The notes beneath the pieces were generated by a model. The model saw only the letters and a list, made by a program, of their open reading frames with translations, did no database searches and was not told where the DNA came from. DNA of 32,006 nt from a bacterium (GTDB taxonomy: Bacteria; ARS69), in the NCBI GenBank assembly GCA_025774805.1, contig JALGZR010000091.1, positions 1 to 32,006 on the forward strand. Reading direction: 5' to 3'. Positions 28,642-31,850 of this stretch are shown one piece after another. Each line of letters begins with the position of its first letter. The first letter of the stretch is position 1. Both the position numbers and the translations under genes were made by a program.

Positions 28642-29083
28642 TCTCAGAACGGGAGTCGAACGATGTCAACGGGAGCGGGCCGGCACAATCGACAAGGACG
28701 CCGGTTTCTTCGGTTCCCCCGTCGGCATCGATCCGGCATCGGACTCCACGACCCGTCGTATGACGTCGCCCGGAGGGATTGCGCGAGAGTCCGCGCCGGA
28801 GTGCGGAGTGCCGATCCGGGCACCACGGAAGAGGTCGGGCCCGGGGGCTCGGGTGCTTGATCGGGGTGGCCCTGTTCACCATGGGGTCAGAGTTCGCGTT
28901 GGGAGAGGGGACCCGGACCTGCGCCTGCGGAAGGCCGCGGCGAGGTAGTGGACGCTCCCCCGCTCAGCTGCCGCCCCGCCATTCCGCCGCCGTAACGCCC
29001 TGGAGGGCAAGGTGTTGACGCTTGGCGCGTTTCGTTTCGCTGGCCGGTCTGTCCGGCGGCGAGCCCGAGTGACAGGGTAGACT
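28642..29083. other. Gene-free interval
   Basis: No ORF with coding character on either strand; the ones present are Arg/Pro-rich shadows. GTCCGGCGGCGAG at 29051-29063 matches the start of the repeat family found further right, and GCGGCGAGG lies near 28938, so a decayed repeat copy may follow the NmrA-like gene. Nothing else is seen. Confidence 0.4.
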
Positions 29084-30001
29084 TCAGCCTAGCCCCTTTC
29101 GACGTCGCGCTTCCCGTTCCAGAGTGGTCGGCACAAAGTCGAAGGTGTCCAACAGCCGCTTGTGATCCATCGGCACCTCAGCAGCCATTTCCGGAGGGAA
29201 TCTGTTCAGCAGGGTGAGGGCCGAGGCGATGTACTTGAGGAACGGGAAGGCCCATCCAAGCTGGAAGAAAGCGGTTCTGATAGGTGCAAGTGGGATCTTC
29301 CTGAACCGAATGGGCCGACCCCAGACATCGCCGATGCGGCGTGCTGCCTCGGGTAACGACATTGCCTCGGGTCCCGTCAGACGAAAGTGCATGCCCGACA
29401 GGTCGTCGCGCACAACGGCTTGAGCCGCAACGGTTCCCAAGTCGGACGGCGAGAGCGTCGGGATCGATGGAGGCCCTCCTCCGGGAACGATCATGACATC
29501 GCTCCGAATGAAGGCGAAGAACAACTCCATCGACGGTGCACAACCCAACACCGTCCAGTTGAGGGGTGAGTCGGCGAGGGCGGCTTGGACGTCCAGCTGG
29601 GGTCGGGCAAATTCGAGCAACCCTAGCGGCTCGACGAACTCCCGCCGCACGTCGTAGCCAGAGAGGTAGACGAAGCGTCGGGCACCCTCACGCTCGGACC
29701 GTTCGATGAGCGCGAGCACAGCGTCACGTTCGATTGCAATCCGCTTGCGGATGAGCTTCTTGGTCCCCGCAGATACAGAGAGGATGATTGCCCGTGCGCC
29801 TTGGAGCGCGGGCGAGAGCGACTCGACATTCGTAATGTCTCCCTCGATGATCTCGGGTTCGCTCCCCACGATGCTCCGTGCGGCCTGCGCATTCCGGCTC
29901 AGCAAACGTACCCGCTCGCCGACCTGCAAAAGGCTCCGGACAATGTGGCGACCGTAGTGGCCCGTGCCGCCGATAATCAGAATGGGACGCTCGCGGCCCA
30001 T
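29084..30001 (-). CDS. NmrA-like NAD(P)-binding protein
   Basis: 305-residue atypical short-chain dehydrogenase/NmrA-family protein. The Rossmann glycine motif GGTGHYG is at 11-17, with LLSRN at the end of the second strand and EGDITN after the next, all typical of NmrA/HSCARG proteins that sense NADP(H) or act as reductases. A hydrophobic patch near the C-terminus (FFQLGWAFPFLKYIASALTL) may touch the membrane. The ATG has GGAGG 9 nt upstream. A TTGAAC at 30050-30055 (minus strand) could be its -35 box. First of four minus-strand genes separated by repeats. Substrate unknown. Confidence 0.85.
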   Translation of the reverse strand: MGRERPILIIGGTGHYGRHIVRSLLQVGERVRLLSRNAQAARSIVGSEPEIIEGDITNVESLSPALQGARAIILSVSAGTKKLIRKRIAIERDAVLALIERSEREGARRFVYLSGYDVRREFVEPLGLLEFARPQLDVQAALADSPLNWTVLGCAPSMELFFAFIRSDVMIVPGGGPPSIPTLSPSDLGTVAAQAVVRDDLSGMHFRLTGPEAMSLPEAARRIGDVWGRPIRFRKIPLAPIRTAFFQLGWAFPFLKYIASALTLLNRFPPEMAAEVPMDHKRLLDTFDFVPTTLEREARRRKGLG

Positions 30002-30124
30002 GGTGCGCTCCCTCCCCCAAACTGAACGCTACCTTACCGATCCGGGTCGTTCAACCTTGTCCTGATAGCGACTCATTAACTCCCGCCGCAAGTGAACTCA
30101 GGTCGTGTCCGCCCACCCAAAGGG

Positions 30125-30242
30125 GGGCGAGCGCGGCGGGGCAGCGCAGTTTCATCAGTGGCCAACGTGTCCGACGGTCACGTCGACTACGCACTATCGC
30201 CCGTCCCTGTCCAGGCACCTCCTCCGGCGGCGAGAGGGGCGG
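30125..30242. repeat. Repeat unit 1 (copies A and B of the bounding motif)
   Basis: The bounding motif GGCGAGAGGGGCGGGGCGGA occurs diverged at 30125-30139 and nearly exact at 30229 on, 103 bp apart. The interior shares CCGACGGTCACGTCGAC with unit 2 (30717-30836). Lies downstream of the DUF6868-like gene. Confidence 0.6.
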
Positions 30243-30379
30243 GGCGGAGCAGGACGGTGGTAAGGCGCCTACAGACCAGGCGGTCTGCCCGCGTCGGACG
30301 GCTACCTTCAGCGCATCCGTCTTCGCTCCGACGCCGAACACGTGACCCGTATTGAGAGTTCGGAGGTAGCGAAGCGGCC

Positions 30380-30588
30380 TCAGCCCACGATGCGCAGCGC
30401 CAGGTAGGGCGCCAGATTGAAAAGCATGATCGCTCGTCGAAACGCTCCACGGAAAGGCTGAACCACTTGCCGTGATAGCCGTATACCCAATCGTGTGCGA
30501 GCCTAATCACCATCCACCAGAGCAACAGCATCACCCAGTTAATGATGGTGCACCACCCCAGGGCGTCCCGGATTACGTCGAGAGTCAT
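30380..30588 (-). pseudogene. DUF6868-like small membrane protein, frameshifted
   Basis: The N-terminal half reads in one frame (MTLDVIRDALGWCTIINWVM, then a membrane helix, HGKWFSLSVERFDE) and the family's C-terminus, MLFNLAPYLALRIVG, follows at once in another frame, ending at the TGA at 30382-30380. The segment normally between them (roughly a dozen residues) is missing, so a small out-of-frame deletion lies near 30430-30436. GGAGG sits 7 nt before the ATG. Read straight through in the first frame, the protein runs on into meaningless Arg/Pro-rich sequence across the repeats. Function of DUF6868 is unknown. A sequencing error is possible but would need to remove many bases. Confidence 0.7.
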
Positions 30589-30716
30589 CGTTCATCCTCC
30601 CTCTCACGTGAACGTGGTCTCGCGCAAGGTCCTATGGCAGCAAAGTCCATGATCGAGGGAAAGGCAAGTCATACTGAGGGCTAGTCGCCACGCTACTCCT
30701 GCCGGCCCGTCTTCGT

Positions 30717-30836
30717 GGGCGAGAGGGGCGGTGCGGTGCAGGATCATCGGTGGTCAGCACGTCCGATCGTCACGTCGACTGCCCACCACCGCTTGTCGCC
30801 TTCTGGGCTACCTCGTCCGGCGGGCGAGAGGGGCGG
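30717..30836. repeat. Repeat unit 2 (copies C and D of the bounding motif)
   Basis: GGGCGAGAGGGGCGG at 30717-30731 and again at 30822-30836, 105 bp apart. The interior forms a long imperfect hairpin: GGTGGTCAGCACGT pairs with ACGTCGACTGCCCACC. Lies downstream of the 42-residue membrane peptide gene. Confidence 0.65.
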
Positions 30837-30985
30837 GGAAGAGCAGAAAAACGACGACCTTCCGAGCAGACTCGCCCTCGATCGTCCTGAGTCGCAGAAA
30901 ACACATGTCCCGCCAATGCACGACCGTCGCCGGCCGCGCCCGGGCTCCAATGCACAACATGTCGCCCCGGCCCGGCGCGTACTCC

Positions 30986-31114
30986 CTACGCTTGTTCCGA
31001 CTTCCTCATCCGGCTCTGGCCCCAGAAGAAGACACCCAGTCCGGCAAGGAATACGCCCAGACCGATGGGTCCGGGCCAGAACAGGATCAGAAACCAGAAG
31101 AGCCACTCAGGCAT
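30986..31114 (-). CDS. 42-residue single-helix membrane peptide
   Basis: Small gene with a textbook ribosome-binding site, AAGGAGG, 8 nt before the ATG. The product begins MPEWLFWFLILFWPGPIGLG, continues as a second hydrophobic stretch (VFLAGLGVFFWG) and ends in a charged tail (QSRMRKSEQA). A central Pro-Gly-Pro kink could make one long helix or a hairpin. No family recognised. Same strand and same repeat-separated layout as its neighbours. The strong start signal and clean composition argue that it is expressed. Confidence 0.65.
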   Translation of the reverse strand: MPEWLFWFLILFWPGPIGLGVFLAGLGVFFWGQSRMRKSEQA

Positions 31115-31192
31115 GTCGCGTTCCTCCTTCGAAGGTGTCCATATCTGAACCCGAATCCACTGATCACGTCCAGCGCTGCGTTTATGGCCGGG

Positions 31193-31394
31193 GGGCGAGA
31201 GGAGTGGGGCGAAGCAGCGGAACGGCCGCTCATAGACATCCGTCGATCATCGCCTTCGATCTGCTGCTCGTCCGGCGTCGAGAGGGGCGGGGCGGAGCAC
31301 GACCATCGGTGACCGGCGCGTCCCACCGTTCCATCGACGACGAACCACGGCATGATGGTTCCCGGGCCCGCTCGTCCGGCGGCGAGAGGGGCGG
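31193..31394. repeat. Repeat units 3 and 4 (copies E, F and G of the bounding motif)
   Basis: The bounding motif starts near 31193 (diverged), 31277 and 31381, so two units of 83 and 104 bp lie in tandem. F and G share GAGAGGGGCGGGGCGGAGC exactly. The F-G interior contains the perfect hairpin GAACCA-CGGCATGA-TGGTTC. Lies downstream of the 31434-31850 gene. Confidence 0.65.
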
Positions 31395-31433
31395 GGCGGA
31401 GCGGCATCATGGCCGACGACCGAGGCCGCAGGA

Positions 31434-31850
31434 CTAAGGCTTCCGGCGTCTCGCCTCGCTTGCCACCAAGTACTCCGAGGCCATCGTGACGAAGTCCATT
31501 GGCTCGGGTTCCGAAAGTATCGCTGGGTCGAGCATCCAGATCTCACACAATTGATCTAGGGGCCGGCGATCGTAACTCTCGTGGGTAGAGCCTTCTTTCC
31601 ACGGCGTTGATGCGATCACAAGTGTTGCCTGGATTATGGCCTCGCGCAGCGCTGCGTCATCCCTGACGTCCCGCGCGCGCGCCTCAATAAGATCCGCGTT
31701 CTTCTCGGCAAAGGCCCGGGCCTCATCATTGGACGCCGGCTGTTGCAGCAGGTGATTCGTGACCGCTCCGGCAAGCTTGTCGGCAACGTCATCTGGGTGG
31801 TGAGCCGAGAATCGCCCTTGCAGCCTGAAGCCGGTGCCCATCATGACCAT
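31434..31850 (-). CDS. Hypothetical soluble protein
   Basis: 138 residues, family not recognised. Acidic, mostly helical; the middle is rich in Ala/Glu/Asp (NDEARAFAEKNADLIEARAR) and the C-terminal third has the distinctive DQLCEIWMLDPAIL segment. No signal peptide or membrane segment. The ATG at 31850 has GAAGGA 6 nt upstream; a GTG at 31868 would add six residues and has no such site. Rightmost of the four minus-strand genes in the repeat-bearing region; the gene beyond it runs the other way. Confidence 0.6.
   Translation of the reverse strand: MVMMGTGFRLQGRFSAHHPDDVADKLAGAVTNHLLQQPASNDEARAFAEKNADLIEARARDVRDDAALREAIIQATLVIASTPWKEGSTHESYDRRPLDQLCEIWMLDPAILSEPEPMDFVTMASEYLVASEARRRKP

Follow-up and report, generated by a model that had tools for sequence, protein, structure and literature searches.

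The last 3 kb of the window, where small genes on one strand alternate with a repeat, raise the question of how such a cassette-like order came about. Integrons are the best-known bacterial route to ordered arrays of captured genes. The original prediction saw in this order a resemblance to an integron array without an attC core and proposed either another recombination-based gene-capture system or an expanding noncoding repeat. The window of 32,006 nucleotides is an entire contig (C37) of a 5.1-Mb genome in 284 contigs.

The gene-repeat array and its units

The coordinates confirmed that four minus-strand genes alternate with the repeat at the end of the contig, and each of the junctions A/B, B/C and C/D contains it. 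The features are as follows.

31434-31850, minus strand: gene A, 138 aa, ATG start with a purine-rich stretch upstream, no confident family
31278-31404, minus strand: unit C37a, block, interior with rsmH-like core at 31309-31341, block
31194-31290, minus strand: short unit, block 31277-31290 in common with unit C37a, unrelated spacer of 55 bp, decayed block 31194-31207
30986-31114, minus strand: gene B, predicted membrane protein of 42 aa, GGAGGA upstream
30718-30846, minus strand: unit C37c, rsmH-like core at 30750-30782
30380-30588, minus strand: gene C, DUF6868 (PF21742), C-terminal part in a different frame
30126-30252, minus strand: unit C37d, rsmH-like core at 30158-30190, second block decayed
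29084-30001, minus strand: gene D, NmrA-like NAD(P)-binding protein (PF13460, 2.5e-20)
29036-29063, minus strand: possible block relic, 79% direct repeat of 31359-31386 over 28 nt

Comparison of gene A with Pfam, PADLOC and PHROGs gave nothing above the cut-off, and no match was found among plasmids. Gene C is frameshifted after about residue 52 and is either a pseudogene or affected by a sequence error. PADLOC and PHROGs gave no sign of phage or defence genes in the cargo of the array.

Seven 14-base blocks of the GGCGAGAGGGGCGG type are located within 30126-31394 with the predicted spacings of 103, 105, 83 and 104 bp. They start at 30126 (two mismatches), 30229, 30718, 30823, 31194 (two mismatches), 31277 (one mismatch) and 31381, the remaining four being exact copies. 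A typical unit measures about 104 bp. Its diverged interior, with a core of 33-37 bp similar to rsmH, is flanked by two directly repeated copies of a conserved end block of about 25 bp (GCCCCGCCCCTCTCGCCGCCGGA). Pairwise identity is 88-100% in the first block (25 bp) and 68-100% in the second, with the lowest value at the decayed end of unit C37d, but only 56-77% in the 57-bp middle. As the block and the middle of one copy should be equally old, the block seems to have been kept alike by constraint or by homogenisation.

The interiors are less uniform than had been expected. The proposed common motif CGTCACGTCGAC is exact only in 30718-30846 and present with one mismatch in 30126-30252 but absent from 31278-31404, and the interior of the 83-bp unit (31194-31290) is unrelated to the others. 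The decayed copy suggested at 29058 retains only 8 of the 14 block bases, although the similarity of 29036-29063 to 31359-31386 makes a relic possible. The unit ends that precede genes are ragged and lack a single sharp breakpoint. Two such ends on different contigs (30690-30731 and L036:735-790) share a GA[AG]-type stretch, GACGGGC[CG]GGCAG[AG]A, that is absent from the tandem blocks.

The predicted dyad with imperfect hairpins was not confirmed. Folded as single-stranded DNA, the seven interiors gave z values from -0.57 to +1.96 against dinucleotide shuffles, no better than the shuffled sequences, and the repeat is therefore not a dyad. The consensus fold contained only two pairs with double-sided change, its covariation term was unfavourable, and no convincing covariation was detected. 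An Rfam scan of the repeats produced no match, a terminator scan yielded a single match, which lies within gene B and does not exceed the number in shuffles, and neither terminal inverted repeats nor inverted arms were found in the units.

Distribution and setting of the arrays

The exact 14-mer block occurs eight times in the genome, four times on C37 and four times at the start of a second contig, C270; elsewhere in the genome, one-mismatch copies are about as common as with a reversed-pattern control. Whole units of C37 and C270 share 80-81% identity (BLAST E down to 3e-29), and the C37 units match one unit on a third contig, C17, partially with 78%. A repeat model built from six units was run on this genome and on four genomes of the same family. 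The C37 units scored E values of 7e-30 to 4e-28 with this model, which was made from these same units, and in the 5.1-Mb genome full copies were found only on C37, C270 and C17. The four family genomes contained zero array copies. On C270 the repeats lie among three genes, one of them a remnant; two gene junctions hold the repeat, and the junction 2158/2256 is without it. On C17 about one and a half units precede a cytochrome c-like gene. Repeat and flanking genes share their strand in all clusters, so that the genome search proposed originally ended with three gene-repeat arrays, all co-directional with their genes.

Beyond this genome, the exact block pattern gave 0 matches in genome_contigs and viral_contigs, blastn against plasmids found no repeat, and a set of 98 genomes contained arrays in no genome but this one, with rsmH matches in two relatives. 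The repeat family is real and private, that is, lineage-specific. The three array contigs may represent one locus, which makes the sample small. Joining C37 and C270 by synteny was tried and rejected: in the best relative the flanking genes are about 120 kb apart, with no array genes at the matching places. In the relative G002 a tRNA-Met gene is located directly upstream of tilS (L238:2679-2755); upstream of tilS on C270 (L034:3765-4028) no tRNA was found and the array occupies the place.

Recent local duplication was considered as a source of the units and is disfavoured, because tandem neighbours are no closer to each other (82% identity on C270) than units on separate contigs (up to 83%).

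The array genes differ from nearby host genes in composition. Their GC content is 56-63% compared with 66-72%, and their GC3 mostly 63-81% compared with 79-88%. They are foreign in composition and look horizontally acquired. The genes of an integron on contig C266 resemble them in GC and GC3.

The final 113 bp of C37 (31894-32006) are repeated without change at the beginning of contig C61 and include the start of an open reading frame (MAKRI). C37 thus ends inside a multicopy IS-like element, another copy of which starts C61, and this explains the assembly break. The surroundings of the arrays are variable and IS-like. A second repeat, 129 bp long and with 80-87% identity between copies, lies at 28873-29001 of the window and at C270:3636, C276:184, C205:19, C244:83838 and C248:19674. 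On C37 and on C270 it bounds the array on its outer side, and it is also present at or near three other contig ends.

The original prediction advised looking for a nearby recombinase. A search covering tyrosine recombinases detected none beside the arrays; all five matches are on other contigs, among them C19, C144 and C190, and two of the five are XerC/D-like by inspection.

Comparison with integrons and with rsmH

The absence of an attC core held up. A scan for pairs of RYYYAAC and GTTRRRY with up to two mismatches on both strands of C37, C270 and C17 found none in the repeats and none beyond shuffles. As this core feature was tested and is lacking, the array is not classed as an integron in spite of the similar layout.

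The genome does contain an integron. The integron integrase on C266 reaches 415.8 bits with TIGR02249 (cut-off 265) and is truncated by an in-frame TAG located a short way ahead of the catalytic tyrosine region (C266:31000-35756, 1636-2640). It is followed by two genes on the same strand with attC-like sites (2865-4528 in C266:31000-35756). These sites, GTCTAAC with GTTGTGC and GCACAAC with GTTGGGG, are near the consensus and placed after genes; their folding energy is not beyond the best of shuffles, and they have no resemblance to the array repeat. Uninterrupted integron integrases were found in two genomes of the same family (G002:C16 and G003:C352). A protein of the C270 array is related to the exported protein of the first integron cassette in one of these two genomes (36% over 76 aa, E 2e-5), a weak link because such exported proteins form a large family in the lineage. 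The lineage thus has integrons and their cargo overlaps in kind with that of the arrays.

Thirty open reading frames of this genome, and 13-26 in each of four relatives, carry the tail [ST]WGx[ILV]K[AGS]x[YF]R at their C terminus, compared with 0 for the reversed pattern. The tail-bearing proteins are mostly exported (for example L034:1171-1203, L208 and L200), and the tail may be a lineage-specific sorting signal. Defining the array cargo by this tail ([ST]WGxxKxxYR) was dropped, since the 30 genes include ordinary tandem families without repeats.

The middle of the units aligns with the start of rsmH, the gene of 16S rRNA methyltransferase H. Apart from the arrays and array fragments, rsmH was the best match of the repeat model in all five family genomes, with E 3.6e-4 in this genome and 7e-5 to 4e-3 in the other four. 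The 33-bp core consensus is identical to the genome's own rsmH in 29 of 33 positions, in the frame VVDATVGRAGH, and individual units in 23-29, with 23/33 as the best match of reversed decoys (268 kb, both strands). Read in the rsmH frame, the units encode VVDGTVGRAGH, AVDVTIGRADH, VVDVTVGHVGH, VVDATVGRAGH, VVDATVRRASH and VVDVTVGRPGH. The pairwise differences between units fall 20 times on first, 31 times on second and 79 times on third codon positions. Ten of the 11 third positions are variable, compared with 4 and 5 at the others (hypergeometric P 0.007, not adjusted for the pattern having been noticed beforehand). The rsmH genes of the five genomes vary at some of the same residues, A/G after VVD and R/H after TVG. 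This codon-like pattern may have been preserved by exchange with rsmH, by a match to that gene, by pairing with its mRNA or by translation. A single capture of an rsmH piece is likely, because the same bases foreign to rsmH flank the core in all units. The genome carries its own rsmH at a distance from the arrays, with an uninterrupted open reading frame.

Possible origins and relation to known systems

We favour, with a probability of about 0.4, an island of acquired genes, each of which would have arrived with its downstream repeat, joined at the blocks of a constrained, lineage-specific repeat. Most island genes carry one or two copies of the repeat of about 104 bp at their 3' side on the same strand. 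Joining could involve a site-specific recombinase, or else the blocks could recombine by homology; if a circle with a single block inserted at a block already in place, exactly the order block, gene, block would result. The confinement to three arrays of acquired-looking genes and the absence from the four family genomes, the fixed orientation, the conservation of the block, the lack of a signal of local duplication, the lower GC of the array genes and the C270 protein related to a cassette protein favour this explanation. It is weakened by the lack of a tyrosine recombinase match next to the arrays, the ragged unit ends, the one C270 junction without a repeat and the small sample. A cassette-like layout, as originally suggested, is supported by the confinement, the orientation and the lower GC and GC3, and recombination is a candidate mechanism.

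Almost as likely is a noncoding MITE- or REP-like repeat that picked up a fragment of rsmH and spread passively in one unstable, IS-rich region, which the assembly split into three contigs. The order of genes and repeats would then reflect only the tolerance of insertion between genes. In favour of this, the copies all lie between genes in varying number, a multicopy IS-like element and other repeats are present at the end of the region, and no tyrosine recombinase was detected nearby. A passive repeat fits less well with the lack of dispersal elsewhere in the 5.1 Mb, the single orientation relative to genes, the absence of a hairpin or terminal inverted repeats, and a block conserved well beyond the rest of the unit.

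It seems unlikely that the unit is the site of an undescribed, non-integron gene-capture system, in which the arms would bind a recombinase, the core would match or be exchanged with an attachment site in rsmH, and genes would be added serially as gene-plus-site cassettes. Still less probable is an array of the genome's own integron, with divergent or decayed attC sites left after loss of the integrase. The integrase and attC-like sites on C266, the gene-repeat order, the orientation and the related cargo would agree with such an origin, but it is contradicted by the missing core, as no R-box pair better than shuffles was present, and also by the direct end blocks, the lack of a stable single-strand fold and the dissimilar C266 sites. 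Equally improbable is a role of the rsmH-like core as RNA or peptide, either as decoy or antisense of rsmH mRNA or as a small translated motif: the core identity well above decoys and the codon-position differences speak for it, stop codons at variable positions near the core, the absence of a covarying RNA structure and a core less conserved than the block against it.

If genes do arrive with such a unit, the arrays would suggest a second route to, or a replacement for, the integron architecture in a genome with a damaged integron, and searches based on attC would miss them. If the repeat only spreads, the arrays show how easily cassette-like layouts are misread.

REP, BOX and MITE sequences are dispersed modular noncoding repeats. 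The units described here are likewise short, modular and located between genes in varying copy number, but they are found on three contigs only, have a fixed orientation to genes and form neither a stable hairpin nor terminal inverted repeats. With integrative elements that have their attachment site in a conserved gene, for example Tn5253 at rbgA (PMC8571831), the units share a short segment that matches a conserved gene of the chromosome and is flanked by constant arms. They differ in that the core is present in every unit of several arrays, the genome's own rsmH is distant and has an unbroken reading frame, and no tyrosine integrase was found beside the repeats. None of the papers listed by a literature search for rsmH as an integration site mentioned this gene. 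Compared with chromosomal integron cassette arrays and integrase-less attC arrays (CALIN), the arrays have no R boxes or foldable bottom strand, their arms are direct and not inverted, the integrase is truncated and on another contig, and the units hold an rsmH-like core. What they have in common with these arrays is a succession of unrelated small genes of foreign composition on the same strand, with a similar site of about 100 bp behind each gene.
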